Assembly: GCF_013409505.1 (NCBI RefSeq)
Contig: NZ_JACCBN010000001.1
Coordinates: 1,674,001-1,738,000 of the forward strand
Length of the DNA stretch: 64,000 nucleotides
DNA from: Actinomycetospora corticicola
GTDB lineage: Bacteria > Actinomycetota > Actinomycetes > Mycobacteriales > Pseudonocardiaceae
Direction: 5' to 3'
Within the stretch, counting starts at the first letter, position 1. Each line of letters starts with the position of its first letter. The position numbers and the translations under genes are program-made. The notes beneath the pieces are model-generated. The model saw only the letters and a program-made list of their open reading frames with translations. It made no database searches and was not told the DNA's origin. Shown one piece after another: positions 85-54,567 of this stretch.

Positions 85-2292
85 TCAGTTCCGCAGCCGC
101 ACGCTCGACGACACGACCAGCACCGACGACAGCGCCATCGTCAGGCCCGCGATGAGCGGACTGAGCAGGCCGAGCGCGGCGAGCGGGATGGCCGCGACGT
201 TGTAGCCGAAGGCCCAGACGAGGTTGCGGCGGATCGTGGTCGCGGTCCGCTTGGCGAGGTCGAGGGCGTCCGGAACCGCGTTCAGGTCGTCGCGCACGAG
301 GATGACGTCGGCGGCGTCGAGGGCCACGTCCGTCCCGGCGCCGACAGCGAGCCCGAGGTCGGCGGCCGCGAGGGCCGGGCCGTCGTTGATGCCGTCGCCG
401 ACCATGGCGACGCGTCGCCCGCCGGAGCGCAGGGCCTCCAGCGCCTCGACCTTGCCCGCCGGCAGCACGTCGGCGATCACCTCGTCGACCCCGACGGCCG
501 CTCCGACCGCCGACGCCGCCTCGGCCCGGTCGCCGGAGAGCAACACGGTCCGCAGACCGGCCGCCCGCAGGCGCGCGATCGCGGGCGCCGCGGACGGCTT
601 GACCTCGTCGGCGAGCTCGTACACCGCGGCCGGGTCGCCGTCGAGGCTCACGACGACGAGCGTCGAGTCGGCGGCCGGCTCCGGCGCCCACGCCGGCAGG
701 TCCCGCAAAGGCTTCTCCAGCCGCACCTCCACGCCGTCGACCACGCCGCGCGCGCCGAGCCCCGGCAGGGCCCCGAAACCCTCGACGGCGGGGAACTCGT
801 CGGCCTCGGCCCGGGCGCAGGCCACGATCGCCCGCGCCACGGCGTGCTCGGAGGCGTCCTCGACCGCCCCGGCGAGCGTCAGCACCCGTCGTCGGGAATC
901 AAGAGAAGCCAGGTGCACCGCCCGCACGCTCATCGCGCCGGTGGTCACGGTGCCGGTCTTGTCGAAGACCACGGTGTCGACGACGCGCGAGGTCTCGAGC
1001 GCCTGGTGGCTCTTGAGGAAGATGCCCTCGCGGGCGCCGCGGCCGGAGGCGACGAGCATCGCCGTCGGGGTGGCGAGGCCGAGCGCGCAAGGGCAGGCGA
1101 TGACCAGCACCGCCAGGGCCGCGGAGAACACGTCGCCGGCCGTGCCGCCCACGGCCCACCAGCCCAGCGCCGTGAGCACCGAGAGCGCGATGACGATGGG
1201 GACGAACACCGAGGAGATGCGGTCGACCAGCCGCTGCACGGACGCCTTCGACGCCTGCGCGGACTCGACGAGCCGGATCATCCCGGCGAGCTGGGTGGCG
1301 CCGCCGACGGCCGTGGCGGTGACGACGAGGCGCCCGGACACGGCGACGGTCCCGCCGGTCACGGTGTCGCCCGCGGCGACCTCGACGGGCACGGTCTCGC
1401 CCGTGAGCATCGAGCGGTCGACGGCGCTGGCGCCGGACTCGACGGTCCCGTCGGTCGCGACCTTCTCGCCGGGCCGGACGACGAAGCGGGTCCCGACGGC
1501 GAGCGCGGAGGCCGGGATGCGCGCCTCGGTGCCGTCGGGGAGCAGCACGGCGACGTCGCGCGCGGCGAGGGCGGCCAGCGAGGCGAGCGCGTCGCCCGCG
1601 GACCGCTTCGCCCGGGCCTCGACGTAGCGCCCGGCCAGCACGAACGTCGTCACCGCGGCGGCGACCTCGAGGTAGAGCGGGCCCACCGGGTCGAGGAAGA
1701 CGCTGAGCGCGCCGGCCGAGGGGTCGGGGAGGTGCCCGGTGAGGATCGAGCCGAGCGACCACACGGTCGCCGCGATGATCCCGAGCGAGATCAGCGTGTC
1801 CATCGACGACGCGCCGTGCCGGGCGTTGATGAAGGCGGCGCGGTGCAGGGGCCACGCCGACCACACGACGACGGGGGCCGCGAGCGCCGCCACCACCCAC
1901 GCCCACCCGGGGAACCGGGCCTCGGGGAGCACCGAGAGAACCAGCGGCAGGTCGACCATCGGGATGAACAGCACGGCCGCGACGACGAGGCGCCGCCACA
2001 GGTCGGCCACGCGGTCGTCGCGCGCGGCCTCCGCCTCCGGCACCGACCCGTCGTCACGCACGCTCAGCGGGGTCGCGCCGTAGCCCAGCTTCGCGACGAC
2101 CTCGACGACGGTGGAGCGCTCGACGTCGGGACGCAGCGTGACCGTCGCCCGCTCCGTCGCGTAGTTGACCTGCGCGATCACGCCGTCGACCTTGTTGAGC
2201 CGGCGCTCGATGCGGGACGCGCAGGCCGCGCACGTCATGCCGGTGAGGAGGAAGTCCTCGGCCTGGTCCTCCCGCGGAGCCGCGACGGTCAT
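85..2292 (-). CDS. copA: Copper-translocating P1B-type ATPase
   Basis: ATP-driven export of Cu(I) across the plasma membrane. The 735-residue protein has an N-terminal HMA domain with the metal-binding pair C21-x-x-C24 in GMTCAACAS, an actuator domain, the transmembrane metal site CPC near residue 398 ([10 protein letters not shown]), the phosphorylated Asp in DKTGTVTTG near 442 and the hinge GDGIND near 630. The last helices carry YN and MALSS, the signature of the Cu(I) subgroup. The nucleotide-binding HP dipeptide reads HA here (SEHAVARAI). ATG 2292 follows a GGGGG stretch; an upstream in-frame start would add 13 residues ahead of the HMA domain. Divergent from a membrane protein and a CopD/CtaG gene, which fits a copper role. 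Confidence 0.93.
884..898 (-). repeat. Dispersed 15-mer, exact (reverse strand)
   Basis: Inside copA on its sense strand, in the nucleotide-binding domain region DSRRRVLTL. Confidence 0.6.
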
Positions 2293-2351
2293 GCCCCCGA
2301 TGATGCGCCCCCCACGCGGGCGCGTGCACACCTGGTGTCACCATCGTCGGC

Positions 2352-2783
2352 GTGACCAGCACCGACGAGAGCACGCCGGACGCTGCCACCGACACCTCCG
2401 CGGGCGCCACGGGTGCGGCGACGTTCGCGCTGGTCGTGGCGGGGATGGCGCTGGTCAGCGCCTGGACGGGCTGGGGCGGCATGGCACTCGGCCTCGTGGC
2501 GCTGGTCGCCGCGGTGGTCGCGCTGATGCGGGTGCGCTCGGGCCGGGCGTCAGGTCGCGGTAAGCCCCTGGCCGCCCTCGGTGTGGCGCTGATCGCGGTG
2601 GTGATCGGCACCATGATCGAGTGGCCGACCATCGAGTCCGCCGTGACCTACCTGCACGCGTCGCAGGCCCGCACGCTCGACGAGTGCATGCGCCAGGCGA
2701 TCAACGAGAAGGAACAGCACGTCTGCAAGTCCCAGCACCTCGACGAGTACCGGGCCCGCTTCCCCGACCGTCTCGACCCGTGA
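2352..2783 (+). CDS. Small membrane protein of unknown function
   Basis: 143 residues. The N-terminus is Ser/Thr/Asp-rich, followed by two or three hydrophobic segments (about residues 20-60 and 72-90) and a polar C-terminal part with two cysteines (DECMRQ and HVCKSQ). The layout resembles DUF4190-type proteins, but no diagnostic motif is visible. It starts with GTG, and its TGA overlaps the GTG of the CtaG/CopD gene by 4 bases, so the two are almost certainly co-translated. That coupling, and the divergent copper ATPase, suggest a role in copper delivery or the cell envelope; this is inference. Confidence 0.7.
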   Translation: MTSTDESTPDAATDTSAGATGAATFALVVAGMALVSAWTGWGGMALGLVALVAAVVALMRVRSGRASGRGKPLAALGVALIAVVIGTMIEWPTIESAVTYLHASQARTLDECMRQAINEKEQHVCKSQHLDEYRARFPDRLDP

Positions 2784-4756: not shown

Positions 4757-4768
4757 GAGTGGGCGCAC

Positions 4769-7360: not shown

Positions 7361-7375
7361 GTCCCGACGGCGGGT
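7361..7375 (+). repeat. Dispersed 15-mer, one mismatch
   Basis: GTCCCGACGGCGGGT differs from the repeated motif TTCCCGACGRCGGGT at its first base. It lies in the ilvA-htpG divergent region on the htpG sense strand. Confidence 0.5.
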
Positions 7376-13244: not shown

Positions 13245-13748
13245 ATGGCCGGATTCGTGCTCGGGGACCGCCCCGACCCGCCGATCGCCGCCCCCGAGGC
13301 GGACACCCTGGTCGGCTTCCTGGAGTTCCAGCGCGCGACGTTCGCGTGGAAGTGCGGCGGTCTCGACGGGGCGGGGCTCGCGACGAGGGTCGGGGTCTCG
13401 ACCATGACGCTGGGCGGTCTGCTCGGACACCTGACGGCGGTGGAGGACTCCTGGTTCACCGACGACTTCGCGGGCCGGTCGGTCGCCACCGCGGACGACC
13501 CGTGGGCCGCCACCGCCGCGCCGGACGTGCTGCGGTCGCAGTGGCGTGCGGCCGTCGACCGCTCCCGGGCCGTGGTGGCCGAGGCGCTGCGGGAGCAGGG
13601 GCTCGACGCGGTCGCCCGCGATCCGAAGCCGCCGGAGCGGCCGGTCACGCTGCGCTGGATCCTCGTGCACATGATCGAGGAGTACGCGCGGCACAACGGC
13701 CACGCCGACCTGCTTCGCGAGGCGGTGGACGGCGAGACGGGGGAGTGA
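13245..13748 (+). CDS. DinB/DUF664 family protein, mycothiol-transferase-like
   Basis: 167 residues forming a four-helix bundle fold. The DUF664 signature is clear: GGLLGHLTAVEDSWF near residue 60 and MIEEYARHNGHADLLRE near 145-160, giving three metal-ligand histidines. Family members are metal-dependent thiol S-transferases that use mycothiol in actinobacteria, which agrees with mshC in this window. The exact substrate is unknown. ATG 13245 has a weak ribosome-binding site and a TAGGCA sequence upstream. Confidence 0.8.
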   Translation: MAGFVLGDRPDPPIAAPEADTLVGFLEFQRATFAWKCGGLDGAGLATRVGVSTMTLGGLLGHLTAVEDSWFTDDFAGRSVATADDPWAATAAPDVLRSQWRAAVDRSRAVVAEALREQGLDAVARDPKPPERPVTLRWILVHMIEEYARHNGHADLLREAVDGETGE

Positions 13749-13750: not shown

Positions 13751-13765
13751 TTCCCGACGACGGGT
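13751..13765 (+). repeat. Dispersed 15-mer TTCCCGACGACGGGT, exact
   Basis: Starts two bases after the DinB-like stop codon, on the sense strand, in the 18-base gap between convergent genes. Confidence 0.7.
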
Positions 13766-17425: not shown

Positions 17426-18145
17426 TCACCCGCCGCTGAGCTCCCGTTGACCCGGGATCGCTCCGCCCGGCCGAGCGGCCAGGGCCGTCCAGGGGAACGT
17501 GATCAGTGCCCAGACCGCGAGCACCACGACCGCCTCCACCAGCAGGTACGTCGGGTAGGGCCCGAAGAGGTCGAGGATGGAGGCGGCGTCGGGCTTGCGG
17601 TCGAGGTAGCCGTAGTTGGCACCGGTGAGCAGGTTGACCGGTTGCGCGACCGCGGCCCAGACGAGGGTCGCCGCGACGGTCCGCCCGTAGTCGGTCCAGC
17701 CCGGCCGCCGACGCCGGCCCCACGTCAGCAGCACCGCGGCCCAGATCGGCAGCACGTGTGCGGTGAAGAAGGCGAGGAAGCTCGGGGCCGGGAAGTCCGG
17801 GCCGCCGAGGGCCGGCGTGGCGATGGCCTGGACGGTGAGCGTCAGCGCCCAGTAGTAGGTCATCCCGTAGGCCCACTGCCGCCCGCTCCACAGGGCGTAG
17901 GCCGCGACGTAGGGCACGAGGTCGGAGAGCCAGAGCGGCAGCGTCTGACCCGCCCGAGCGGGCTCGAACGCGTAGATCTGGTACGCCAGCGTGGTCAGCA
18001 CGAGCAGGACCGCGAGCGTCCGCTCCAGTTTCCCGACGACGGGTGCGGGCGCCCTCCGCGCGAACGGCACCAGCGCGACCGCCCCGACGACGGTGAGGAC
18101 CACGACGACGACGTGCGACGTCCCCCAGGGCACGAAGGTGCTCAC
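17426..18145 (-). CDS. TIGR02206/YwaF-type integral membrane protein
   Basis: 239 residues with about seven hydrophobic segments. Conserved-looking polar positions within the membrane include WLSDLVPYVAAYALW, AIATPALGGPDFP and LLTGANYGYLDRKP, which match the YwaF/TIGR02206 family of unknown function. It is the last gene of an overlapping operon: its GTG 18145 shares four bases with the stop of the preceding gene. A copy of the dispersed 15-mer (18030-18044) falls within its N-terminal part, antisense to the gene. Confidence 0.75.
   Translation of the reverse strand: MSTFVPWGTSHVVVVVLTVVGAVALVPFARRAPAPVVGKLERTLAVLLVLTTLAYQIYAFEPARAGQTLPLWLSDLVPYVAAYALWSGRQWAYGMTYYWALTLTVQAIATPALGGPDFPAPSFLAFFTAHVLPIWAAVLLTWGRRRRPGWTDYGRTVAATLVWAAVAQPVNLLTGANYGYLDRKPDAASILDLFGPYPTYLLVEAVVVLAVWALITFPWTALAARPGGAIPGQRELSGG
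18030..18044 (+). repeat. Dispersed 15-mer TTCCCGACGACGGGT, exact
   Basis: Within the YwaF-like gene but on the opposite strand, encoding part of the segment PVVGKLE. Confidence 0.6.
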
Positions 18146-19350
18146 GCGCTCACCCTCCTCCGGCGTGAGGGGAACCCTCGTGTCACGAGAGCGCTCGGAT
18201 CCTCCCCTCGCGAACGGGCGAGTGCCCAGGCAGCGAACGGGACCGCGCCGGCCCCGAGCGTCAGGTCGGCCTGCCACACGCTGCTGGTGAGCAGCAGCCA
18301 GAACCCGGCCGAGAGCACGGTCGGCGCGATCAGGACGGCGGCGGCGCACCAGCCGACCGCGCTCTCCGTGGTCGGCCGCAGCCGGACCAGCGCGGCGACC
18401 AGGAGGGCCAGCGCCAGGACCGCGATCCCGACGATGGCCGGGTGCAGACCGCGCTCGCCGGTCACCTTGGCGCCGACGTGCAGGGGCGAGAACCGGTCGG
18501 TCCCGCCGAGGAGGAACGGCACGATCAGCACCGCCCACGTGAGCGCGGCGATCCCGCCCACGAGCAGGCCGGCCCGCCACCCCTGTGGCAGGAAAGCGTC
18601 GTTGCTGTCAGTGGACGCCGGCAACGACGCTTTCCTGCCACGACGGGAGGGGCGCAACCCCACCGCCACGGCCACGATCACGACGACGAGCGCCAGGTGC
18701 GGCCGGGTGCACGTGGCGATCCCGAGAGCGACCGCCCCCGTCGTCAGGAACAGCGGGGAGCGGGCCCGCAACACCCAGGCCGCGGCCGCGACGGCGGGGA
18801 CGACGCTCGACACGAGGTCGTCGCCGACGAGGAACTCGCGCGCCACCTCGGGGGTGATCGCCACGAGCGCCCACAGCAGCGTCGGCGCCGGGCGCAGGCG
18901 CCACCCTCCGTTCAGCACCGGCAGCAGCACCAGCGTCCAGGCGACGTTCTGCCAGGCCGCGTGGCCGGTCAGCGCCCAGAACGGCGCGGCGAGGACCAGC
19001 GAGCCGGGGAGCGGGGTGATCGGGTTCCCGAGGTAGGTCAGGCCGGTGTACGGGTAGAGCCCGCCCGCGAGGCGGGTGAGCGCGACGTCGAGCGCGTCGG
19101 CGCGATCGCTGCCGAGGCCCGGGGTCCACGACGGCGGGCCGAGCACGAACGCGACCACCAGTCCGACGGCGACGACCGCGACCAGGCCGCCGAGCACCCA
19201 CCGCGGCGGACGCGCGACGTCGGCGGCCAGGACCAGCGCGACGATCACGACGTAGACGCCGACGACCGCCGGCGGCCCGCCGAGGGACATCGCCGGGAAG
19301 GTGGAGACGACGGCGAGGATCGCGCCGAGCGCGAGGGCGCCCGCCCTCAT
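18142..19350 (-). CDS. Polytopic membrane protein, possibly GT-C glycosyltransferase-like
   Basis: 402 residues with about ten hydrophobic segments. The segment GGLYPYTGLTYLGNPITPLPG after the third helix resembles the first extracellular loop of GT-C type lipid-sugar glycosyltransferases, but the usual acidic catalytic motif is not clear, so the assignment is tentative. A 57-base perfect-arm palindrome (18585-18641) lies in frame and encodes KASLPASTDSNDAFLPQ in a loop between helices. The last codons are basic. It overlaps genes on both sides by 4 bases (ATGA upstream, GTGA downstream), so this is a translationally coupled operon. Confidence 0.7.
   Translation of the reverse strand: MRAGALALGAILAVVSTFPAMSLGGPPAVVGVYVVIVALVLAADVARPPRWVLGGLVAVVAVGLVVAFVLGPPSWTPGLGSDRADALDVALTRLAGGLYPYTGLTYLGNPITPLPGSLVLAAPFWALTGHAAWQNVAWTLVLLPVLNGGWRLRPAPTLLWALVAITPEVAREFLVGDDLVSSVVPAVAAAAWVLRARSPLFLTTGAVALGIATCTRPHLALVVVIVAVAVGLRPSRRGRKASLPASTDSNDAFLPQGWRAGLLVGGIAALTWAVLIVPFLLGGTDRFSPLHVGAKVTGERGLHPAIVGIAVLALALLVAALVRLRPTTESAVGWCAAAVLIAPTVLSAGFWLLLTSSVWQADLTLGAGAVPFAAWALARSRGEDPSALVTRGFPSRRRRVSA
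18585..18641. repeat. 57-base palindromic element inside a membrane-protein gene
   Basis: Arms of 21 bases (18585-18605 and 18621-18641) pair perfectly around a 15-base loop. The arm begins GTGGCAGGAAAGCG. Bases 18612-18641 recur exactly at 24776-24805. The length is 19 codons, so the host reading frame is kept, like the protein-coding palindromic elements of Rickettsia. Confidence 0.8.
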
Positions 19351-20036
19351 CGGCGGCGCGGGGGGCGGCGGGGCGGACGGCGCTTCTCCACGGTCCGCCG
19401 CTTCTCCGAGGTGCGCGGCTTCTCCTCGGACCGCGGGGTCCGGGAGCTGTTCACCGTGCGTCCGCGGACGATGCCGATGAACTCCTCCATGTCCTCGCTG
19501 TTCTCCGCGTCCGGCCACGTGAGCGCGACCGCCGAGGTCGGAGCATCGGTGAGGGGCCGGTGGGTGAGGTCGCGGCGGTGGTGCAGGCGGGCCAGCGACA
19601 GGGGGAGGACCAGCACCCCGACGCCGGCGGCGACGAGCTCGATCGCGTCGGCGGTGGTCTCCGGGTCGGACACCGCGGCGCGGCCGGGCCGCTCGGTCCA
19701 GGGGAGGGTGTCGTCCTGCGGACGTTGGACGATCTCGTCGGCGAGGTCGTCGAGCGTGGCCTCCTCGGCCGCGGTGACCACGTGGTCCTTCGGCACCACG
19801 ACCACCGTGACCTCGGTGTAGAGCGGGATCGCGTGGAGCCCGGTCCGGTCGATCGGCAGCCGGACCAGGCCGGCGTCGAGCTCTCCGCCCCGGATCCGCG
19901 CCACGACCTCGTCGGTGGTCCCGAGGCCGACCTCCAGCGGGACCTGCGGACGACGCTCGGCCCACATCCGCGCCCACTTGTCGGGCGTGACGCCCGGGAC
20001 GTGGCCGAGCCGGAAGGCGGCGGGCTGCTCGGTCAC
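19347..20036 (-). CDS. LysR-type substrate-binding domain protein without HTH
   Basis: 229 residues. It opens directly in the periplasmic-binding-like effector domain of LysR regulators (FRLGHVPGVTPDKW to LTWPDAEN, about 8-185) and lacks the N-terminal winged helix. Instead it ends in a strongly basic, repetitive tail (about 190-229, with EEKPRTSEKRRTVEKRR and RRPPRRPPRRR) that could bind nucleic acid. It is divergent from the DUF5997 gene, a pairing known in actinobacteria. A TATCCT box lies 6 bases before GTG 20036, so the mRNA is probably leaderless. ATGA overlap with the downstream membrane gene. Confidence 0.78.
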   Translation of the reverse strand: MTEQPAAFRLGHVPGVTPDKWARMWAERRPQVPLEVGLGTTDEVVARIRGGELDAGLVRLPIDRTGLHAIPLYTEVTVVVVPKDHVVTAAEEATLDDLADEIVQRPQDDTLPWTERPGRAAVSDPETTADAIELVAAGVGVLVLPLSLARLHHRRDLTHRPLTDAPTSAVALTWPDAENSEDMEEFIGIVRGRTVNSSRTPRSEEKPRTSEKRRTVEKRRPPRRPPRRR

Positions 20037-21458: not shown

Positions 21459-21473
21459 ACCCGTCGTCGGGAA
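21459..21473 (-). repeat. Dispersed 15-mer, exact (reverse strand)
   Basis: Lies between the tRNA-Leu terminator and the cold-shock gene start, in the direction of both. Confidence 0.65.
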
Positions 21474-23737: not shown

Positions 23738-24694
23738 GTGCGCGGCTGGACGGTCACGTCGTTCGGGGAGCCGCGGGAGGTCCTGTCGCTGACGGATCTC
23801 CCGGAGCCTGCACCGGATTCCGGACGGCGGGTGGTGCGGGTCGAGGCGTCCTCGGTCAACTTCGCCGACATCCTGTACTGCCGCGGCACGTACCAGGAGA
23901 AGCCGCCGCTGCCGTTCACGCCGGGCCTCGAGGTGGCGGGCGTCGACGTGGAGACCGGCGAGCGGGTGTTCGGCCCGGCGGCGATGCCGCACGGCGGGTA
24001 CGCGGAGTACGCGGCCCTGTCGTGGGCCTACCCGTGGCCCGAGGGCATGTCGGCGGCGCAGGCGTCCGGGTTCTGGGTGGCCTACCAGACCGGGTGGTGC
24101 GCGCTGCACCACCGGACGTCGCTCTCGGCGGGCGACACGCTGCTGGTGCACGCGGCCGCCGGAGGCGTGGGCGCGGCGGCGGTGCAGCTGGGGAAGGCGG
24201 CGGGCGCGCGGGTGATCGCGACCGTGGGGTCGGCCGACAAGGAGGCCGTGGCCCGTCGCTGTGGCGCCGACGAGGTGCTGGTGCTGGACGCCGAGGCGAC
24301 CGCGCTGATCCCGGCGGTGAAGGAGCTGACCGACGGCCGCGGGGTGGACGTGGTCTACGACCCGGTCGGAGGCGACACCTTCGACGCCTCCCGCCGTGTC
24401 GTGGCGTGGGAGGGCCGCATCCTCGTCATCGGGTTCGCGGGCGGGCGGATCGCCGACGCCCCGACCAACCACGCGCTCGTGAAGAACTACGACGTCGTGG
24501 GCGTGCACTGGGCGGCCTACCAGAAGCGCTCGCCGGAGCTGATCGACGCGTGGCAGCGGGAGCTGGAGTCCCTGTGGGCCCGCCGCGCCATCGACCCGCT
24601 CGTGGGCGCGGAGTACACGCTGGAGCAGCTCCCGGACGCGCTGGACGCGATCGCCGCCCGCACGACGACGGGGCGGGTCGTCGTCACGCCGTGA
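23738..24694 (+). CDS. NADPH:quinone oxidoreductase family protein (zinc-free MDR)
   Basis: 318-residue medium-chain dehydrogenase/reductase. The N-terminal catalytic fold contains ASSVNFADILYCRGTYQ, typical of quinone reductases, and lacks the structural zinc cysteine cluster. The NADPH-binding loop AAAGGVGAAAVQLGKAAGA is near residue 135. It reduces quinones or enoyl compounds; substrate unknown. GTG 23738 has GGGAGG upstream within the end of the SDR gene. Third gene of the M20-SDR-QOR operon. Confidence 0.88.
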   Translation: MRGWTVTSFGEPREVLSLTDLPEPAPDSGRRVVRVEASSVNFADILYCRGTYQEKPPLPFTPGLEVAGVDVETGERVFGPAAMPHGGYAEYAALSWAYPWPEGMSAAQASGFWVAYQTGWCALHHRTSLSAGDTLLVHAAAGGVGAAAVQLGKAAGARVIATVGSADKEAVARRCGADEVLVLDAEATALIPAVKELTDGRGVDVVYDPVGGDTFDASRRVVAWEGRILVIGFAGGRIADAPTNHALVKNYDVVGVHWAAYQKRSPELIDAWQRELESLWARRAIDPLVGAEYTLEQLPDALDAIAARTTTGRVVVTP

Positions 24695-24743: not shown

Positions 24744-24758
24744 ACCCGCCGTCGGGAA
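24744..24758 (-). repeat. Dispersed 15-mer, exact (reverse strand)
   Basis: In the 122-base gap between the convergent quinone reductase and DUF5703 genes, downstream of DUF5703 on its sense strand. It lies 17 bases from a second repeat type at 24776. Confidence 0.7.
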
Positions 24759-29284: not shown

Positions 29285-30220
29285 GTGACCGCCCCGGACT
29301 TCCGCCACCGGCTGAGCTCGGAGCCGCTCGGCCCGTGGGGGGCGCTGCGGCTGTGGTGGACCTACCCGGACGACGCCGACGCGCGGCGGGACGCGGCCCG
29401 CATCCCGGTGACGCCAGGGGCGGAGCTGCCCGACCCGGCGTCGGGACGGCTCGGCGTGACCTGGCTGGGGCACGCGTCCGCGCTGCTCTGGGTCGACGGG
29501 GTGACGGTGCTCGTCGACCCGGTCCTCTCGCCGGGCATCCCGGGGGCGGCGAAGCGCCTGACCCCGCCCGGTCGGACGGTCGCGGAGCTGCCGCGGATCG
29601 ACGCGGTGCTGATCAGCCACGACCACTACGACCACCTCGACGTCCGCACCCTCGGCGCCCTCCCGCGGTCGACGCGCATCCTCGCGGGGCTGAACTCCGC
29701 CGCCTTCTTCCGGGCCCGCGGGTTCACCGACGTCGTCGAGCTGGACTGGTGGGAGTCGGTCGGCGTCGCGGGGCTCTCCGGCGAGGTGCGGATCGAGTTC
29801 GTCCCGGCCCGGCACTGGTCGCGGCGCACGGTGACCGACTACTGCCACCGGCTCTGGGGCGGCTGGGTGGTCACCGCGCCCGACGGCCGCGCGGTCCACC
29901 ACGCCGGCGACAGCGCGGCCGGGCCGCACGTCGCCCGGATCGCCGCCCGGCACCGCCGGATCGAGATCGCGGCGCTGCCGGTCGGTGCCTACGCGCCGCG
30001 GGAGCTGCTGCGCACGGTGCACATGGATCCCGCCGAGGCGGTGAAGGTGGCCGAGACGTTGGGCGTGCGCCGGGTGGTCCCGGTCCACTGGGGCACCTTC
30101 GTGCTCTCCGGCGAGCCGGTGCTCGAGCCGATCGAGGCGACCCGCCGGGCCTGGGCCCGCGCCGGCCGTGACCGGGACGACCTCTGGGACCTCCCGATCG
30201 GCGGGTCCCGCACGCTGTGA
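29285..30220 (+). CDS. MBL-fold metallohydrolase (NAPE-PLD/UlaG-like)
   Basis: 311 residues. The metal motif SHDHYDHLD (HxHxDH) is near residue 118, with further ligands in PARHWSRR, HHAGDSA and PVHWGTF. The N-terminal WLGHASALLWVDGVTVLVDPVLS strand pattern matches the beta-lactamase-like fold seen in N-acyl-phosphatidylethanolamine phospholipase D relatives. Probable phosphodiesterase or lactonase; substrate unknown. GTG 29285 starts one base after the previous stop, and its TGA overlaps the MFS start by 4 bases. Confidence 0.85.
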   Translation: MTAPDFRHRLSSEPLGPWGALRLWWTYPDDADARRDAARIPVTPGAELPDPASGRLGVTWLGHASALLWVDGVTVLVDPVLSPGIPGAAKRLTPPGRTVAELPRIDAVLISHDHYDHLDVRTLGALPRSTRILAGLNSAAFFRARGFTDVVELDWWESVGVAGLSGEVRIEFVPARHWSRRTVTDYCHRLWGGWVVTAPDGRAVHHAGDSAAGPHVARIAARHRRIEIAALPVGAYAPRELLRTVHMDPAEAVKVAETLGVRRVVPVHWGTFVLSGEPVLEPIEATRRAWARAGRDRDDLWDLPIGGSRTL

Positions 30221-31455
30221 GACTGCTCGTCTGGGGCACGGCGGTCCTCGCGTACGTCTGCTCGGTGACCGGCCGCTCCGCGCTCGCCGCGACCGGACCC
30301 GTCGCGGCGGCCCGGTTCGACGTCTCCGCGGGCGTGCTGTCCCTGCTCGCCGTGCTCTCGCTCGCCGTCTACGCCGTGCTGCAGATCCCCGCCGGGATGC
30401 TCGTCGACCGCTTCGGCCCGCGCCGCCTCATCGCGGGCGGCGCCGTGCTCGTGGCCGTCGGGCAGGTGCTGCTGGCGGTGGCGCCGTCGTTCCCGGTCGC
30501 GGTGGTCGGGCGGGTGCTCGCGGGCGCCGGCGACGCCGTCATGTTCGTCAGCGTCCTGCGGCTCGTCCCGACGTGGTTCGCACCACGACGCGTCCCGGTC
30601 GTCAACCAGCTCTCCGGCATCCTCGGCCAGTTCGGGCAGGCGGTGTCGGCCATCCCGCTCGCCGGTCTGGTGGTCTCCTCGGGCTGGACCGCCGCGTACC
30701 TCGTCGCGGCCGGCGCCACGGGGCTGGTCGCGGTCGCCGCGGCGCTGGTCGTCCGGCCCGGCCCGCTCGGGGTGGTGGCGGCGACCGAGCACGGCCGCAT
30801 GCGCGAGGTCGTCGCGAGCCCGGGCGCCCGGCTCGGCTTCTGGTGCCACTTCGCCTCGCCGTTCTCGGCGAACGTATTCGGCCTGCTCTGGGGCTTCCCC
30901 TTCCTGACGGCGGGGGAGGGCGTCCCGGTCGGTCCGGCACGGCTGCTGACCAGCGGCGTCGTGCTGGTGACCATCCTCTTCGGCCCGCTGTTCGGGCTGC
31001 TCTCCGGCCGGTTCCCGCACCGCCGCGTCACGCTGATCACCGCGTCGGTGCTGGGGCAGGCGGTGGCCTGGTGCGTGGTGCTCGCCTGGCCGGGGACGGT
31101 GCCGCTGTGGCTGCTCGTGGTGCTGGTGGTGATCGTCGCGAGCGGGGGATCGGCCTCGCTCGTGGCCTTCGACGTCGCCCGGTCCGCGGTGCCCCCGGGG
31201 TCCATCGGCCGCGCGTCGGGGATGACGAACGTGGGCGGGTTCGTGTCCTCACTGCTCGTCGTGGCGCTGGTCGGCGTCCTGCTCGACCTGCAGGGTGCGG
31301 GCTCCCCGGACGCGTGGGACGCCGACGTCTTCCGCGTCGCCATGGCCGTGCACGTCCCGGTCCTGCTGATCGGGCTGGCCGGCATGTGGTTCTCCCGCCG
31401 TGCGCTCACCGTTCCCGACGACGGGTCGCGGCTGCCGGTGGCTGCCTCGCGCTGA
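30217..31455 (+). CDS. MFS transporter
   Basis: 412 residues, 12 predicted membrane segments. The loop after segment 2 is GMLVDRFGPRRLI and the related one in the second half GLLSGRFPHRRVT. The sugar- and nitrate-type signatures are absent, so the substrate is unknown. It is translationally coupled to the MBL hydrolase (GTGA overlap), suggesting that the hydrolase product or substrate is transported. A copy of the dispersed 15-mer (31412-31426) encodes TVPDDGS in its last 15 codons. Confidence 0.83.
   Translation: MRLLVWGTAVLAYVCSVTGRSALAATGPVAAARFDVSAGVLSLLAVLSLAVYAVLQIPAGMLVDRFGPRRLIAGGAVLVAVGQVLLAVAPSFPVAVVGRVLAGAGDAVMFVSVLRLVPTWFAPRRVPVVNQLSGILGQFGQAVSAIPLAGLVVSSGWTAAYLVAAGATGLVAVAAALVVRPGPLGVVAATEHGRMREVVASPGARLGFWCHFASPFSANVFGLLWGFPFLTAGEGVPVGPARLLTSGVVLVTILFGPLFGLLSGRFPHRRVTLITASVLGQAVAWCVVLAWPGTVPLWLLVVLVVIVASGGSASLVAFDVARSAVPPGSIGRASGMTNVGGFVSSLLVVALVGVLLDLQGAGSPDAWDADVFRVAMAVHVPVLLIGLAGMWFSRRALTVPDDGSRLPVAASR
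31412..31426 (+). repeat. Dispersed 15-mer TTCCCGACGACGGGT, exact
   Basis: In the last 15 codons of the MFS gene on the sense strand, read as VPDDG. Confidence 0.65.
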
Positions 31456-33834: not shown

Positions 33835-33849
33835 ACCCGCCGTCGGGAC
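33835..33849 (-). repeat. Dispersed 15-mer, one mismatch
   Basis: ACCCGCCGTCGGGAC, reverse-strand form differing in the last base; intergenic, 28 bases past repeat copy B. Confidence 0.5.
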
Positions 33850-33900: not shown

Positions 33901-33906
33901 TAGCGT
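33901..33906 (+). promoter_or_regulatory. -10 element for the MoxR-like gene
   Basis: TAGCGT, 7 bases before GTG 33914. It overlaps the earlier in-frame GTG at 33905, so a leaderless start at 33914 is favoured. Confidence 0.5.
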
Positions 33907-33913
33907 GGTGGAG

Positions 33914-35374: not shown

Positions 35375-37349
35375 GAATCTTCCCGACGGCGGGTCGGGGC
35401 GGAAGCCGCCGCCCGGCCGCTACTCCTACGGCCGGTTCTACGACGGGCCCGACCCGCTCGCCCCGCCGTTCGACATCCGCGAGGCGATGGACGCGCTCGG
35501 CCGTGACGTCATGGAGGGCACCAGCCCACGCCAGGCGATGCGCGAGCTGATGCGACGTGGCCTGCGCGACCAGCAGGGGCTCGACGATCTGCAGCGTCGC
35601 CTCAACGAGCAGCGCCGCCGGCTGCAGCGGGAGAACCGGCTCGACGGCACGCTGCAGGAGATCCGGGAGCTGCTGAACCAGGCGCTCGAGGCGGAGCGGA
35701 ACTCGCTGCAGGCGGAGGACTCCGACGACGCGCGGTTCCGGGAGATGAGCCTGGACGCGCTGCCGGACTCGACGGCGGGCGCGGTCAACGAGCTGGAGAA
35801 CTACGACTGGCGCAACGCCGAGGCGCGCCAGGCCTACCAGCGGATCCAGGACCTCATGGGCCGGGAGGCGCTCGACCAGCGCTTCCAGGGCATGAAGCAG
35901 GCGATGGAGAACGCGACGCCCGAGGACGTCGAGCGGGTGCAGGAGATGCTCTCCGACCTCAACGACCTGCTCGAGGCCCACGGTCGCGGCGAGGACACCA
36001 CCGAGCAGTTCTCCGAGTTCATGGGCAAGCACGGGGAGTACTTCCCCGAGAACCCGAGCAACACCGAGGAGCTGATCGACGCGCTCGCGCAACGCTCCGC
36101 GGCGGCGCAGCGGATGATGAACTCGCTGTCCGCCGAGCAGCGCGCCGAGCTCGAGGGCCTCATGCAGTCCGCGTTCGGCGACCCCCGGCTGGCCGAGCAG
36201 CTCTCGCGACTGGACTCGCAGCTGCAGGCCATGCGCCCGGGGGAGGACTGGGACGGGCAGGGCCGGTTCCGGGGCGAGAACCCGATGGGCATGGGCGAGG
36301 GCGCGCGGGCGATGGAGCAGCTCGCGCAGCTGGACTCGCTCTCCGAGCAGCTCTCGCAGAGCTACCCGGGCGCCCGCATGGAGGACATCGACCTGGAGGC
36401 GCTCGAGGCGTCGCTCGGTCGGCAGGCCCGGGTGGACGCGCAGCGGCTCGCCGAACTCGAGCGTGAGCTGGAGAACCAGGGCGTGTTCGAGCGCGGCCCG
36501 GACGGCGCGCTGACGTTGTCGCCGAAGGCGCTGCGCCAGCTCGGCCAGTCGGCGCTGCGGGACGTCGTCGGGTCGCTGTCGACGCGGCGCGGCGAGCGGG
36601 AGACCCAGCGGTCCGGGGCGGCGGGAGAGGCGAGCGGGGCGACCCGTCCGTGGGCCTTCGGCGACACCGAACGGTGGGACACCTCGCGCACGCTGCTCAA
36701 CGCCGAGCTGCGCAAGGCCGGCGGGGACGACCGCGCCCTCGACGTCACCGACGTCGAGATCGTGGAGACCGAGCAGCGGACACGGGCGGCGGTGGCGCTG
36801 TGCGTGGACACGTCGTGGTCGATGGTGGCCGACGGCCGGTGGGTGCCGATGAAGCGCACCGCGCTGGCCCTGCACCACCTCGTCTCGACGCGCTTCCGCG
36901 GCGACGCGCTGCAGATCATCACCTTCGGGCGGCACGCGCAGGCGGTCGACCTGGGGCAGCTCACGGGGCTGGAGGGGGTCTGGGAGCAGGGCACGAACCT
37001 GCACCACGCCCTGCTCCTCGCGGGCCGGCACCTGCGACGGCACTCCGACGCGGCGCCGGTGGTGCTCGTGGTGACCGACGGCGAGCCGACGGCGCACCTC
37101 GAGCCGGACGGGCACGCGGTCTTCGACTACCCGCCGACCCCGGAGACGCTGCGGGCGACCCTCAACGAGGTGGACGTGATCGCCCGCCTCAAGGCCGCCC
37201 TGACCGTGTTCATGCTCGGCGACGACCCGCGGCTCGAGGCGTTCGTCGACCTGGTCGCCCGGCGCAGCGGTGGCCGGGTGATCGCGCCCGACCTGGACGG
37301 GCTGGGGGCGGCCGTGGTGAGTGACTACCTCCACAGCCGGCGACGGTGA
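35364..37349 (+). CDS. VWA-domain protein, partner of the MoxR-like ATPase
   Basis: 661 residues. A Gly/Pro-rich N-terminus is followed by a long helical, Gln/Glu/Leu-rich region (about 45-410) with coiled-coil character, then a von Willebrand A domain (about 470-655). The metal-ion-dependent adhesion site is DTSWS at 482-486, with GTN and TDGE as further ligands. The pair resembles ChlI/ChlD- or RavA/ViaA-type machines. It is cytoplasmic, as no signal peptide is visible. ATG 35364 lies inside the end of the ATPase gene, so synthesis is coupled. A 15-mer repeat copy encodes NLPDGGS at residues 5-11. Confidence 0.87.
   Translation: MAAENLPDGGSGRKPPPGRYSYGRFYDGPDPLAPPFDIREAMDALGRDVMEGTSPRQAMRELMRRGLRDQQGLDDLQRRLNEQRRRLQRENRLDGTLQEIRELLNQALEAERNSLQAEDSDDARFREMSLDALPDSTAGAVNELENYDWRNAEARQAYQRIQDLMGREALDQRFQGMKQAMENATPEDVERVQEMLSDLNDLLEAHGRGEDTTEQFSEFMGKHGEYFPENPSNTEELIDALAQRSAAAQRMMNSLSAEQRAELEGLMQSAFGDPRLAEQLSRLDSQLQAMRPGEDWDGQGRFRGENPMGMGEGARAMEQLAQLDSLSEQLSQSYPGARMEDIDLEALEASLGRQARVDAQRLAELERELENQGVFERGPDGALTLSPKALRQLGQSALRDVVGSLSTRRGERETQRSGAAGEASGATRPWAFGDTERWDTSRTLLNAELRKAGGDDRALDVTDVEIVETEQRTRAAVALCVDTSWSMVADGRWVPMKRTALALHHLVSTRFRGDALQIITFGRHAQAVDLGQLTGLEGVWEQGTNLHHALLLAGRHLRRHSDAAPVVLVVTDGEPTAHLEPDGHAVFDYPPTPETLRATLNEVDVIARLKAALTVFMLGDDPRLEAFVDLVARRSGGRVIAPDLDGLGAAVVSDYLHSRRR
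35380..35394 (+). repeat. Dispersed 15-mer TTCCCGACGGCGGGT, exact
   Basis: Six bases after the ATPase stop and within the first ten codons of the VWA gene, sense strand, read as LPDGG. Confidence 0.65.
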
Positions 37350-37633: not shown

Positions 37634-38884
37634 ATGCAATCGTGGTCTGGAGTCGACGTCCCCCAGGTGCCCGGCACCCCGCCCCCGTTGCGGTTGTTCG
37701 ACACCTCCACCGGCGAGATCCGACCCACCTCGCCGGCCGCGTCCGGGGCCCGGATGTACGTCTGCGGCATCACCCCGTACGACGCGACGCACCTCGGGCA
37801 CGCCGCGACCTACCTCGCCTTCGACCTGGTCAACCGGTGCTGGCGCGACGCCGGGTACGACGTGCACTACGTCCAGAACGTCACCGACATCGACGACCCC
37901 CTCCTCGAGCGGGCGGAGCGCGACTCCGACGACTGGGTCGTGCTCGGGATGCGCGAGACGGCGCTGTTCCGCGAGGACATGGAGTCGCTGCGCGTGCTCC
38001 CCCCGCGGCACTACATCGGCGCGGTCGAGGCGATGGACGAGATCACCGAGCTGGTCGGCAAGCTGCTCGCCTCCGGCGCCGCCTACCGCGCCGACGACCC
38101 CGAGCACCCCGACGTCTACTTCGACCACACCACGACGGCGGACTTCGGCTACGTCTCGCGCTACTCGACGGCGGAGATGGAGCGGATCTTCCCGGAGCGC
38201 GGCGGCGACCCCGACCGGCGCGGCAAGCGCCACCCGCTCGACGCCCTGCTCTGGCGCACCGCTCGCGAGGGTGAGCCGTCCTGGTCCTCCGACCTCGGCG
38301 ACGGCCGGCCGGGCTGGCACGTCGAGTGCACCGCGATCGCGATGAACCGCCTCGGCGACGCCTTCGACGTCCAGGGCGGCGGGTCCGACCTCGCCTTCCC
38401 GCACCACGAGTTCGGGTCCGCGCACGGCGAGGCCCTCACCGGGATCCATCCCATGGCCCGGCACTACTGCCACGCCGGGATGATCGGGCTCGACGGCGAG
38501 AAGATGTCGAAGTCGAAGGGCAACCTCGTCTTCGTCTCCCGCCTGCGCGCCGACCGGGTCGACCCCATGGCCGTGCGCCTCGCGCTGCTCTCGGGCCACT
38601 GGCGCACCGACCGCTCCTGGACCGCGGAGCTCCTCACCGGCGGGCAGGCACGCCTGCACCGGTGGCGCGAGGCGGTCTCGCTGGACGCGACGCCCGACCC
38701 GACGGAGACCGTCGAGAAGGTGCGCGGTCACCTCGCCGACGACCTCGACAGCCCCGGGGCGCTCGCCGCGGTCGACGCGTGGGCCGACGAGGCCCTGCGT
38801 CGTCCCGGCTCGGGCACCGTTCCCGACGGCGGGTCCCGGGCGGCGGGTGCGATCGACGCGCTGCTGGGCATCACCCTGCGCTGA
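37634..38884 (+). CDS. mshC: Mycothiol ligase: cysteine--GlcN-Ins ligase
   Basis: ATP-dependent ligase joining cysteine to the amino sugar GlcN-Ins in mycothiol synthesis. The 416-residue protein is a class I cysteinyl-tRNA synthetase homologue with [14 protein letters not shown] (zinc Cys and HIGH-like motif), [10 protein letters not shown] and the KMSKSKGN loop. It lacks the long anticodon-binding C-terminus of CysS, and the N-terminal [14 protein letters not shown] and length are those of MshC. ATG 37634 is supported by the leaderless promoter; an ATG 24 bases upstream falls before the expected transcript start. A 15-mer repeat copy encodes TVPDGGS about 20 codons from the end. Confidence 0.94.
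38820..38834 (+). repeat. Dispersed 15-mer TTCCCGACGGCGGGT, exact
   Basis: Near the 3' end of mshC on the sense strand, read as VPDGG. Confidence 0.65.
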
Positions 38885-40768: not shown

Positions 40769-40783
40769 ACCCGTCGTCGGGAA
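40769..40783 (-). repeat. Dispersed 15-mer, exact (reverse strand)
   Basis: One base past the PAC2 stop codon, on the PAC2 sense strand. Confidence 0.7.
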
Positions 40784-40784: not shown

Positions 40785-41696
40785 CTACCGCTCCCAGGGA
40801 CCGCCGAGGCTCGGGCCACCGGCGACGTCGTCCGGACCGCCCGGGTCGCGCCGGCGCAGGTAGCGCTCGAAGTCGGCCGCGATCTCGTCGCCCGACGCCT
40901 CCTGGAGGTCGGACTCGGCGTCGCCGGCCTCCTCGAGGGCCTTGACGTACTCGCGGACCTCGTCGTCCTCGTCGGCCATCTCCGAGACCGTGCGCTCCCA
41001 CTTCTCGGCCTGCTCGGGCAGCGCCCCGAGCGGGACCTCGACGTCGAGGACCTCCTCGACGCGCTGCAGCAGCGCGATCGTCGCCTTCGGGGCGGGCGGC
41101 TGCGAGACGTAGTGCGGCACCGCGGCCCAGAAGGAGATGGCGGGGATGCCCGCCTGGACGCAGGCGTCGTTGAGGACCCCGGTGATGCCGGTCGGACCCT
41201 GGTAGCGGGAGCTGGACAGGCCGTAGCGGGCCGCCGACTCCTTGTCGAACGACGAGCCGGTCACGGGAACCGGGCGGGTGTGCGGGGTGTCGGCCAGGAG
41301 GGCCCCGAGCGTGATCACCGTGGTGACGCCGAGCTCCTCGGCCTTGGCCACGATCTCGCCCACGAAGGACCGCCAGCGCATGTTGGGCTCGATGCCGCGC
41401 ACGAGCACGAGATCGCGCTCCGAACCGGGCGGGCGGCAGAGCGTGAACCGCGTGGTGGGCCAGTCGATCGCCCGGCTGATCCCGTCGACCAACCGCACGG
41501 TCGGGCGCGAGACCTGGAAATCGTAGTAGTCCTCGGGGTCGATCGCACCCAGTTCCGTGGCATCCCAGTTCAGCGTGAGGTGCTCCACGGCCGTGCTGGC
41601 GGCGTCCCCGGCGTCGTTCCATCCCTCGAACGCACACAGCATGACCGGGTCGTTCAGCTCGCGAGCAGGGATTCCGGCGTCGTCGGAGGCGGACAC
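40785..41696 (-). CDS. PAC2 family protein
   Basis: 303 residues. The PAC2 fold is recognised by MLCAFEGWNDAGDAAS near residue 20, LVLVRGIEPNMRW, the strand VTTVITLGALLADTPHTRPVPVTG and YQGPTGITGVLNDACVQAGIPAISFWAAVPHY. The family includes proteasome assembly chaperone 2 relatives in eukaryotes; in actinobacteria its role is unclear. A C-terminal acidic helical tail follows (about 240-303). Divergent from metH; a TAAACT box lies 6 bases before GTG 41696, so the transcript is probably leaderless. Confidence 0.87.
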   Translation of the reverse strand: MSASDDAGIPARELNDPVMLCAFEGWNDAGDAASTAVEHLTLNWDATELGAIDPEDYYDFQVSRPTVRLVDGISRAIDWPTTRFTLCRPPGSERDLVLVRGIEPNMRWRSFVGEIVAKAEELGVTTVITLGALLADTPHTRPVPVTGSSFDKESAARYGLSSSRYQGPTGITGVLNDACVQAGIPAISFWAAVPHYVSQPPAPKATIALLQRVEEVLDVEVPLGALPEQAEKWERTVSEMADEDDEVREYVKALEEAGDAESDLQEASGDEIAADFERYLRRRDPGGPDDVAGGPSLGGPWER

Positions 41697-45315: not shown

Positions 45316-45979
45316 TCTGGCTGCCGTCCTGTGGGACATGGACGGCACGCTGGTCGACTCCGAGGGTCTGTGGTCGATCACGATGACGGAGCTCGCCGCC
45401 CACCTGGGCGGCGAGCTCTCCCTCGCGACCCGTGAGGAGCTGACCGGCTCGAGCCTGCGCCGCACCTCGGCCACGGTGCTGCGCGAGGTCGGTCTTCCCG
45501 ACGACGGGGCCTCGGTCGAGAAGGCCGGTCGGTGGCTGCTCGACCGCACCCACGAGGTGTTCGCCGAGGGCCTGCCGTGGCGGCCGGGGGCACGGGACGC
45601 CTTGGCGGCGGTGCGGGCGGCCGGCGTCGCCACGGCCCTGGTGACGAGCACCTACCGCGAGCTCACCGAGGTCGCGCTGGACCAGATCGGCCGCGAGTGG
45701 TTCGACGTCACCGTCTGCGGCGACGAGGTCACGGCCACCAAGCCCGATCCGGCGCCCTACCGGCGGGCCTGCCAGCTGCTGGGCGTCGATCCCGACGCGT
45801 GCGTGGCCGTCGAGGACTCGCCGACCGGTGCGGCCTCGGCGGAGGCGGCCGGCGCGTGGGTACTCGTCGTGCCCGCGGGCCCGCCGGTGCCGGCCGGTGG
45901 GCGCCGGAGCTTCCGGGAGTCGCTGGAGGGCCTCACCGTGAGCGACATGCGGCTGCTCCGATCGGCGAGCGTGCCCTGA
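45308..45979 (+). CDS. HAD-superfamily phosphatase (beta-PGM-like)
   Basis: 223 residues. Motif I is DMDGTLVDSE at the N-terminus, motif II is TST in ALVTSTY, motif III lysine is in ATKPDPAPY, and motif IV is VEDSPTG. The helical cap (about 18-80) places it with beta-phosphoglucomutase or phosphoglycolate phosphatase relatives; substrate not decided. Its ATG lies in the end of metH, so it is translationally coupled to it. A one-mismatch copy of the 15-mer (45495-45509) encodes LPDDGA within the cap. Confidence 0.87.
45495..45509 (+). repeat. Dispersed 15-mer, one mismatch
   Basis: TTCCCGACGACGGGG inside the HAD gene, sense strand, read as LPDDG. Confidence 0.5.
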
Positions 45980-49282: not shown

Positions 49283-51341
<2,059 letters not shown>

Positions 51342-51451: not shown

Positions 51452-51481
51452 GACGCCACGGAGTAGCGGGAGGAGGGCGCC

Positions 51482-53275: not shown

Positions 53276-53282
53276 TACCGGG

Positions 53283-53288
53283 TACCGT
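53283..53288 (+). promoter_or_regulatory. -10 element for the lipase-like gene
   Basis: TACCGT, 7 bases before ATG 53296 and 7 after the mpa stop; leaderless start predicted. Confidence 0.45.
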
Positions 53289-53295
53289 CACCCCC

Positions 53296-54567
53296 ATGAC
53301 GGACGAGCAGCACCGGCCGCTTCCCGCACCTCGCAACGAGGTCCGGGGGGCGGCCGGTGTCGCGTCCGAGGCCGTCGACATCATCTCCCGCCCCGTCGAG
53401 GGCACCCACCGCGCCATCTCCGACACGGTGTTCGCCACCCTGCGCAAGGCGGGCCTGGGCCCGGCCTCGAAGCCCGCGCAGATGCTGCACGACGGCATCT
53501 CCGCCGGCGTCTACTCCGCCGTCCGCGGGCTCGGGCACGCCGCGGGCCGCGGGATCGGGCTCGCTGCGGAGGTCTACCGCGAGGCGTCCGGGAAGGCCGA
53601 CTGGACCCCGATCACGTCGCGCCCGGCGGGTGCGGTGCTGACCGGCGCCATCAACGGCCTCGTCGGGGACCACATGGTGGCCCTCGACAACGACCTCGCC
53701 GTCCCGATGGCCCTCTACACCTCCACCGTCGGCGACCCCGAGGACGGCATCGACCCGCACGCCCAGCTGCGGCTCGACGACATCCGGGTCGCCGACCACC
53801 CGGAGCGGGACCTGTCCCACGTCGTGCTGTTCGTGCACGGCCTGGGGGAGACCGAGCACGCCTGGCGGCTCGCCGACGAGGACAGTGCGGGGGAGGGCTA
53901 CGCCGAGCGCATCGCCTCCGCGGTCGGAGCGGTGCCGCTGCTGCTGCGCTACAACACCGGCATGCGCATCGCCCACAACGGCGCCGCGCTCTCGGTGCTG
54001 CTCGGCGAGGTGTTCGACGCCTGGCCGGAGAAGATCGAGCGGCTCGACCTCGTCGGCCACTCCATGGGCGGGCTCGTCCTGCGCCACGCCTGCCACGCCG
54101 CGGTGCTCGCCGGTGAACCGTGGGTGCACGCGGTGCGCCGCATGGTCTACCTCGGCTCCCCGCACGAGGGTGCGCCGTTGGCCCACCGCGTCGACCAGCT
54201 CGCGACGCAGCTGTCCCGCTGGGCGCGCTCGCGGACCTGGGGCGAGTTCCTCGACCGGCGCTCGGCCGGCATCCGCGACCTCGTCGCCGGGGTCTCCGAC
54301 ACCGACGTGCCCCTCTTGGCGTCCTCGAGCCACCACGGCGTCGCCGCGTGCCTCACCTCGAACGCCCACCACCCGCTCGCCAACATCCTCGGCGATCTGC
54401 TCGTCCCGGTGGACTCCGCGCGCGGCGCGATCGCCGACGTCGAGACGCTGCCGTCGTCGCACCACTTCCACCTGCTCAACGACCCGCGGATCCACGAGCA
54501 CCTGCTGCGCTGGCTGGCTGTTCCCGACGACGGGGCATCCCCGGCCGTCGTCGACGACCGGCGGTGA
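53296..54567 (+). CDS. Alpha/beta hydrolase, PGAP1/lipase-like
   Basis: 423 residues. The C-terminal half has the lipase fold: VVLFVHGLGETEHAW (oxyanion region), the nucleophile elbow LVGHSMGGLV with Ser, an Asp candidate near LLVPVDSARG, and His in SSHHFHLLNDP. The N-terminal 170 residues are helical with Gly-rich stretches and may associate with membranes. It probably hydrolyses a lipid or ester. The gene lies between mpa and dop, where the proteasome locus is normally compact. It overlaps the MFS gene by 4 bases. A 15-mer near-copy encodes AVPDDGA close to its end. Confidence 0.83.
   Translation: MTDEQHRPLPAPRNEVRGAAGVASEAVDIISRPVEGTHRAISDTVFATLRKAGLGPASKPAQMLHDGISAGVYSAVRGLGHAAGRGIGLAAEVYREASGKADWTPITSRPAGAVLTGAINGLVGDHMVALDNDLAVPMALYTSTVGDPEDGIDPHAQLRLDDIRVADHPERDLSHVVLFVHGLGETEHAWRLADEDSAGEGYAERIASAVGAVPLLLRYNTGMRIAHNGAALSVLLGEVFDAWPEKIERLDLVGHSMGGLVLRHACHAAVLAGEPWVHAVRRMVYLGSPHEGAPLAHRVDQLATQLSRWARSRTWGEFLDRRSAGIRDLVAGVSDTDVPLLASSSHHGVAACLTSNAHHPLANILGDLLVPVDSARGAIADVETLPSSHHFHLLNDPRIHEHLLRWLAVPDDGASPAVVDDRR
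54521..54535 (+). repeat. Dispersed 15-mer, one mismatch
   Basis: TTCCCGACGACGGGG near the end of the lipase-like gene, sense strand, read as VPDDG. Confidence 0.5.

Follow-up and report, generated by a model that had tools for sequence, protein, structure and literature searches.

The 64,000-nt stretch analysed here, called the window in the following, covers positions 1,674,001-1,738,000 of the Actinomycetospora corticicola genome (one contig, 6,166,488 bp) and contains nine exact copies of a 15-base word, TTCCCGACGRCGGGT. All nine were found at the positions and on the strands given by an earlier sequence-only reading of the window; the five one-mismatch copies of that reading are likewise correct, and a sixth at 23818(+) had been overlooked. 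Among the 18 congeneric genomes compared, five carry the word in high copy number (this genome, G000, together with G001, G006, G014 and G016) and three form a middle group (G015, G009 and G013). We infer that G016 is A. soli, G006 A. termitidis, G001 sp. NBRC 106378, G014 A. chiangmaiensis and G015 A. endophytica. The copies in the window, their state in these relatives and one neighbouring gene of interest are as follows.

884..898 (-): exact; sense, inside the P-type ATPase gene 85-2292(-); exact in G014, most others unaligned.
7361..7375 (+): one mismatch (first T to G); intergenic; exact at the same place in G016.
13751..13765 (+): exact; 2 nt past the stop of 13245-13748 (Pfam MST, mycothiol S-transferase); absent from G001 and G006, the two aligning relatives.
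18030..18044 (+): exact; antisense, inside 17426-18145(-); exact in G001 and G006, one mismatch in G014 and G016.
20474-21421 (-): gene for a 315-aa protein with four cold-shock domains (CSDs) in tandem, a candidate nucleic-acid-binding partner.
21459..21473 (-): exact; flanked by the four-CSD gene and by a terminator-like hairpin that follows tRNA-Leu(gag); exact throughout the high-copy group and also in G015.
23818..23832 (+): one mismatch (TTCCGGACGGCGGGT); same form in G014, G016 and G001.
24744..24758 (-): exact; between convergent genes, adjoining a second repeat family; exact in G014 and G001.
29433..29447 (-): variant GTCCCGACGCCGGGT, one mismatch with the tenth base left free; exact consensus in G014 and G006.
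31412..31426 (+): exact; 29 nt before the end of the MFS gene 30217-31455(+); frame VPDDGS.
33835..33849 (-): one mismatch; intergenic; exact in G014 and G016.
35380..35394 (+): exact; just past 33905-35374(+), at the called start of 35364-37349(+); varies among relatives.
38820..38834 (+): exact; 50 nt before the end of the cysteinyl-tRNA-synthetase-like gene 37754-38884(+); frame VPDGGS; exact in all five high-copy genomes.
40769..40783 (-): exact; just past the end of the PAC2-family gene 40785-41696(-); not in the three aligning relatives.
45495..45509 (+): one mismatch; a two-mismatch form is common to four high-copy relatives.
50477..50491 (-): one mismatch; same form in G001 and G006.
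54521..54535 (+): one mismatch; 32 nt before the end of 53296-54567(+).

Because four high-copy relatives share its two-mismatch form, the copy at 45495 is possibly a coding coincidence. A tRNA-Gln call by ARAGORN at 32283-32371(+), which Rfam did not reproduce, overlaps a two-mismatch copy on the other strand and is probably false.

The word is far more frequent than base composition predicts, as had been supposed from the window. Allowing up to two mismatches, 26 places were found in the window, against a mean of 1.05 and a maximum of 3 in 100 dinucleotide shuffles, while synonymous-codon shuffling of the window genes, with intergenic bases shuffled singly, left a mean of 0.007 exact copies and a maximum of 1 (300 shuffles of the window). 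The whole genome holds 386 exact copies (182 and 204 by strand; reversed-word control 0 and 0) and 1,278 copies with up to one mismatch (control 0), the latter corresponding to about one per 4.8 kb. In a 464-kb sample consisting of the window and 20 evenly placed stretches of the same genome, TTCCCGACGRCGGGT was the top over-represented word, its pieces headed the 10-, 12- and 14-mer lists, and 36 exact copies compared with 0.04 expected from an order-4 Markov model. Such a count had been proposed by the sequence-only reading, and the excess held up against the reversed word, the Markov model, the sister genomes and the synonymous shuffle of the window.

Sampling of many copies revealed a specific and asymmetric consensus. 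In the 464-kb sample any base may occupy position 10 (A 20, G 16, C 7, T 4), base 1 may also be G, the last base may be G, C or A, and bases 4 and 5, within the left CCC, accept change; outside the 15 bases no conservation was seen in the flanks, bar a slight G+C richness 3' of the word. One-base deviants are commonest at the ends of the word, with 36 at the first and 22 at the last base among 102 one-mismatch copies. The left CC thus tolerates change and the right GGG scarcely does, so that the word, which had been described as a palindrome, is palindromic only superficially. A larger set of 704 kb was made up of the 464 kb and 240 kb from four relatives; the latter is orthologous to the window and therefore not independent of it. 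In this set bases 4 and 5 were changed in 11 and 19 one-mismatch copies, as compared to 1 and 3 changes at bases 13 and 12, with which they would pair in the supposed stem, and a compensated double change was found in a single case. Given these one-sided changes and the near-lack of compensation, neither a hairpin nor a dyad reading holds for single copies, and the small RNA hairpin that had been suggested for them is not borne out.

The word is confined to one clade of these soil actinobacteria. The five high-copy genomes hold 375-440 exact copies each, the middle group holds 37 (G015), 21 (G009) and 11 (G013, which is 59% complete), and the ten other congeners hold 0 or 1. With up to one mismatch the corresponding numbers are 1,070-1,278 for the high-copy genomes, 203, 148 and 79 for the middle group, and 2-13 for the ten others. 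In a tree of 17 of the 18 genomes (about 3.6 kb, midpoint root, the partial G007 left out) the five high-copy genomes group together, and the five plus the three group together, each on a branch supported by 100/100. Among 390 Pseudonocardiaceae genomes only these eight exceed two copies, and 372 genomes of other genera of the family have at most 2 each. Further afield, the word occurs in at least 119 stretches of GTDB species genomes; among the 80 matches listed, eight stretches have two copies, all of them from Actinomycetospora. No phage cluster was seen among the matches listed from 90 viral-contig stretches, the best 80 of which comprise 79 with a single copy and one with two. Apart from such single copies in unrelated genomes and viral contigs, nothing favours chance, composition or codon bias as the source of the word; this explanation has a negligible probability, being refuted by the shuffles, the reversed-word controls and the counts in sister species. 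The dispersed word is real, strongly non-random and clade-specific.

Copies are placed preferentially outside genes. With the tenth base free, the 704-kb set contains 74 exact copies, 31 genic and 43 intergenic, although genes cover 84.8% of it; this genome alone accounts for 47, of which 20 are genic and 27 intergenic. Genes were called with our own script and not taken from the annotation, and calls are sometimes unequal between orthologues; the copy at 18030, for example, is coding in the window and intergenic in G001. Twelve of the 31 genic copies lie within 60 nt of a stop and two within 60 nt of a start, which agrees with the placement near gene ends reported for the window. The preferred reading frame also stands beyond the window, since 13 of 17 sense copies use frame 1 (xPD[D/G]G); nine antisense copies use frame 2. 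The sense-strand majority, on the other hand, fails in the larger set: 17 exact genic copies are sense and 14 antisense, co-directional intergenic copies divide into 8 sense and 8 antisense, and one-mismatch coding copies into 49 and 31. Of the 43 intergenic copies, 37 lie between two called genes, which are co-directional in 16 cases, divergent in 8 and convergent in 13. Along the chromosome, the strand mix in 21 pieces does not depart from chance (P 0.64 for 47 exact copies, P 0.85 for 112 with up to one mismatch). A strand bias linked to replication, which the sequence-only reading had considered, was not found by chromosome position in these pieces (51 copies on the G-rich and 61 on the C-rich strand, origin not located). 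Overall, the interpretation of that reading is partly supported.

Comparison of orthologous sites suggests how copies arose and that they are maintained. Identity at 22 loci among the high-copy species was higher in the motif than in its 60 flanking bases at 20 of them (0.876 vs 0.778, Wilcoxon p 0.003), while the free tenth base, at 0.592, was not above the flanks. All nine genic loci show this difference (p 0.004). The two exceptions, 13751 and 40769, are exact in this genome only. For window copies with up to one mismatch in coding sequence, the motif is 0.899 and the flank 0.815 identical, as compared to 0.890 at random coding places, and the copies thus appear to sit at permissive sites. 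The alignments argue that the word is maintained at the DNA level at most loci. At four coding loci, protein alignments between high-copy genomes and middle-group genomes lacking the word are gapless. Two of these are close: in one, DPSSGT stands opposite EPAAGT or EPVAGT in three relatives, and at 38820 VPDGGS stands opposite VADAGA (G009) or VQDAGE (G015). The other two are looser, with DSRRRV or GSRRRV opposite TDRARV of G015 at 884 and APVVGK opposite ARTVRA or VRTVRV at 18030. As judged from these alignments, the word arose by substitution at some coding loci.

The middle group gives an indication of the timing. Out of 20 copies fetched from G015, 14 were searched in G000 and G014, and 20 of 26 matches were aligned, six weak ones being omitted. 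Ten G015 copies could be aligned, of which seven are exact in at least one of G000 and G014, one differs by a single base (in G000) and two lack a counterpart; at least one of the seven shared copies (S4) is in a coding stretch that is itself well conserved, and protein constraint may explain its retention. In the other direction, 34 pairs of high-copy sites with the middle group include 4 exact ones, the other 30 differing by at least two bases, and among 51 pairs with the sister clade none is exact and one has a single mismatch. From these shared and unshared sites it appears that the common ancestor had some copies and that most were probably gained on the high-copy branch.

We consider that TTCCCGACGNCGGGT may be a word spread over the whole genome that is recognised as DNA and acts like a DNA uptake sequence, and we give this reading a probability of roughly 0.4. 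The role is suggested by the likeness of its traits to those of the DNA uptake sequences (DUS) of Neisseriaceae and the uptake signal sequences (USS) of Pasteurellaceae: hundreds or more copies of one specific word on both strands, located at permissive places and gene ends and kept better than their flanks, with a preferred frame in genes, some inverted pairs and a clade limit. Excerpts of earlier studies report 97% identity for DUS as compared to about 85% for conserved sequence, with permissive places in the core genome (PMC2397512), a bias to gene termini without general genomic orientation bias and with a partial inverted-pair form in Pasteurellaceae (PMC2346458), and DUS dialects in Neisseriaceae (PMC3630211). 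Unlike DUS and USS, the Actinomycetospora word is found in an actinobacterium, has 15 bases, is GC-rich and has fewer copies per base. The word would serve as a self tag that raises the chance of uptake for a DNA fragment from kin. Tagged DNA might be imported by a Tad-type pilus together with ComEC, which these bacteria apparently encode, or might otherwise be favoured in recombination, and alleles bearing the word would spread and be repaired wherever proteins and regulation allow. ComEC was detected in 16 of 18 congeneric genomes and a T2SSF pair likewise in 16 of 18, each in all three copy-number groups, the misses being in both cases the incomplete G013 and G003. The T2SSF locus of G000 contains CpaE-, TadA-, TadB-, TadC-, Flp- and TadE/F-like genes (names read from sequence). 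Transformation dependent on Flp pili has been described for the actinobacterium Micrococcus luteus (PMC4322843). G009, which has only 21 exact copies in all, carries two of them in direct orientation 24 bp apart (L358, 8339 and 8363) at a distance of about 1.5 kb from comEC; this may be chance.

Several results weigh against the uptake reading. The competence genes ComEC and T2SSF show no difference between the copy-number groups of the 18 genomes, and the TadE profile was found in 0 of 18, although short TadE/F-like genes were read in the Tad-type locus. Neither RecC and its neighbour nor ComEC or the CpaE-, TadA- and TadC-like proteins evolve faster in the high-copy clade (pilins and ComEA failed the filter and were left out of this comparison). 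No sister-clade dialect appeared at k = 14: the top score was 16 for G017 and 20 for G010 (200 kb each), whereas the motif reached 85 and 39 in two 200-kb halves from this genome; in the second half a different repeat ranked first at k = 12. Five further sister genomes, pooled to 360 kb, were uninformative, since orthologous sequence that they share, tRNA-Leu for example, prevailed in the result. With no comparable word in G017 and G010, a dialect system is not seen in these two genomes. Of the alignments to relatives near a site, 42 were gapless, 59 gapped and 37 did not cover it, and since 59 of the 101 covering alignments are gapped, insertion is excluded only at the clear gapless loci. Conservation over flanks at the intergenic loci (11 of 13, p 0.11) is not significant alone, and 16 intergenic pairs from the window show none, the motif being less identical than its flank (0.779 vs 0.818, random 0.827). 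Spacing is random and not even (coefficient of variation 1.10 for the 55 copies listed on contig 1 of G014, against 0.79-1.19 for random placement). Three lower-GC pieces of G000, L150, L163 and L168 (at about 0.0, 3.9 and 5.4 Mb; GC 0.656, 0.689 and 0.687), have less called coding sequence than most and are possible acquired islands; they contain 0, 0 and 4 exact copies, and depletion in acquired DNA is not established.

None of ComEC, TadE, T2SSF, RecC and Y1_Tnp, compared by group as possible readers, tracks the copy-number groups. An apparent avoidance of GACGNCGGGT in the sister clade (24 vs 62.9 expected) was dropped, since its ratio of 0.38 compares with a 5% quantile of 0.36 for permuted words.

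The main rival to the uptake reading is that the word is bound by a machine of the cell's own DNA metabolism, a nucleoid-associated, recombination-hotspot or repair protein with a Chi-like logic, acquired or changed in this clade, copies being selected because more sites help the machine. We regard this as possible, if somewhat doubtful; the chromosome-organising site suggested by the sequence-only reading belongs to this rival, as do DNA-binding sites of other kinds. A specific, asymmetric 15-base word on both strands, the density with one-mismatch copies included, and constraint at the DNA level would all suit such a machine, as would RecC, which was found in 17 of 18 genomes and whose counterpart in Escherichia coli is the subunit that reads Chi. 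Chi and the FtsK-orienting polar sequences (KOPS) are likewise asymmetric words read by DNA machines, and counting one-mismatch copies brings the density close to that of Chi in E. coli. However, a strand bias by chromosome position, which is usual for Chi and KOPS, was not seen for this word; Chi words, moreover, are generally shorter and of more than genus-level age, whereas this one has 15 bases and is limited to part of a genus, although RecC occurs in all groups and is not accelerated in the high-copy clade. An improbable alternative is a by-product of the kind proposed, in an excerpt of PMC4390886, for the highly iterated palindrome HIP1 of cyanobacteria, in which a methyltransferase or a repair bias would make and keep the word without any function per site. 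Such a process is in line with the clade limit and with gain by substitution at some loci, and HIP1 and alternate HIPs are also genome-wide words present in some relatives only, with one-base deviants commonest at the ends (same excerpt). Softer ends would nevertheless be expected of any binding word, and HIPs are short palindromes, whereas the present word is longer, asymmetric and not a true palindrome.

An element acting in RNA or transcription, that is a hairpin, terminator or processing site, appears quite unlikely for the word in general, and the terminator-like role raised by the sequence-only reading fits only a minority of copies, the inverted pairs. At up to one mismatch, 884 kb contained 11 neighbours no more than 60 bp apart, against 3.5 expected. 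Four head-to-head pairs (one in L155, two in L159, one in L168) form long hairpins; two of them lie between convergent called genes and one beside a gene end, so that three of the four adjoin called gene ends, but the fourth is flanked by divergent called genes. Compared with shuffled flanks, intergenic copies have a modest folding advantage (47 copies, mean z -0.76 downstream and -0.85 upstream), whereas 35 coding copies give scant signal (mean z -0.05 and -0.20). Most copies are single, changes in the supposed stem are one-sided, divergent regions carry copies as well, sense preference is unclear, and Rfam gave no match over the window apart from one tRNA. Spread as a mobile repeat, by a REP-associated tyrosine transposase (RAYT) in the manner of repetitive extragenic palindromes and bacterial interspersed mosaic elements (REP/BIME) or as a tiny miniature inverted-repeat transposable element, is very improbable. 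The dispersed, largely intergenic or gene-end location, the inverted pairs and the 59 gapped alignments resemble such elements. Yet the RAYT domain Y1_Tnp (PF01797) was found in 0 of 18 genus genomes, as compared to 5 of 14 control genomes, copies share only 15 bases without conserved flanks, and at four coding loci the origin is gapless with no insertion; spread by RAYT was for these reasons rejected in the main.

Returning to the uptake reading, a possible partner of the word is encoded in the window itself. By eye, each cold-shock domain of the 315-aa protein shows GFGF/GYGF and VFVH/LFLH stretches, and the copy at 21459, the best conserved of all, ends 37 nt upstream of the start of its gene, on the same strand and beside tRNA-Leu(gag). 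The gene adjoins this tRNA in the five high-copy genomes and in G015; it was not seen there in G009, G013 and seven sister genomes (those other than G003, G007 and G011), as judged from the locus and the sampled stretches. Two genes of the same region, 19347-20036 and 20071-20469, are likewise clade-limited. The four-CSD protein is only a lead as a partner of the word, because its gene was not sought genome-wide and its neighbours share the same limit. Among the literature matches listed, no title concerned a bacterial protein with four cold-shock domains.

To our knowledge, uptake sequences are known from two proteobacterial families. We put forward as a tentative and rather doubtful proposal that Actinomycetospora invented uptake-type self-recognition independently, outside Neisseriaceae and Pasteurellaceae, and in its boldest form that the four-CSD protein, and not a pilin, is the single-strand-binding reader. 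The word would then have been caught partway, with few copies in the closest relatives and none in the next clade. How an uptake word starts and spreads is an open question; with a full set in one clade, few copies in its sister group and none in the next, at 81-91% DNA identity (one 5-kb segment), its birth could here be traced site by site. If the word belonged to a nucleoid or repair protein instead, such a system would have rewritten about a thousand sites within a single lineage, which would be a rare event. Searches of open-licence literature returned no paper containing the letters of the word and none linking a DNA uptake sequence, Actinobacteria and over-representation; by title, none on such a word was found for uptake sequences combined with natural transformation in Actinobacteria, nor, among the matches listed, for Actinomycetospora together with a motif.

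Other repeats were met in the course of the analysis. A second dispersed hairpin family, about GTGGCAGGAAAGCGTCGTTGCTGTC ... GCAGCAACGACGCTTTCCTGCCAC, occurs in the window at 18595-18645 and 24785, with some copies being halves; other copies are found in the following pieces.

L157, 6517
L161, 16821
L164, 2913
L165, 13229
L169, 19270
L342, 4881
L354, 4681

Its core, CGTCGTTGCTGTC, was counted 7 times in the 464 kb of G000 and once in each 60-kb sample of G001, G014 and G016, and was absent from 60 kb of G006 and from the middle and sister samples. The words CCTGTGAGTACT and TACTCACAGG, parts of the palindrome CCTGTGAGTACTCACAGG, have 7-8 occurrences in the G000 sample. Finally, L362 of G015 contains a hairpin of the form GAAGGGGCCCTTCGGTCGA...TCGACCGAAGGGCCCCTTC, which has several weaker matches in G000 and resembles one more intergenic repeat.

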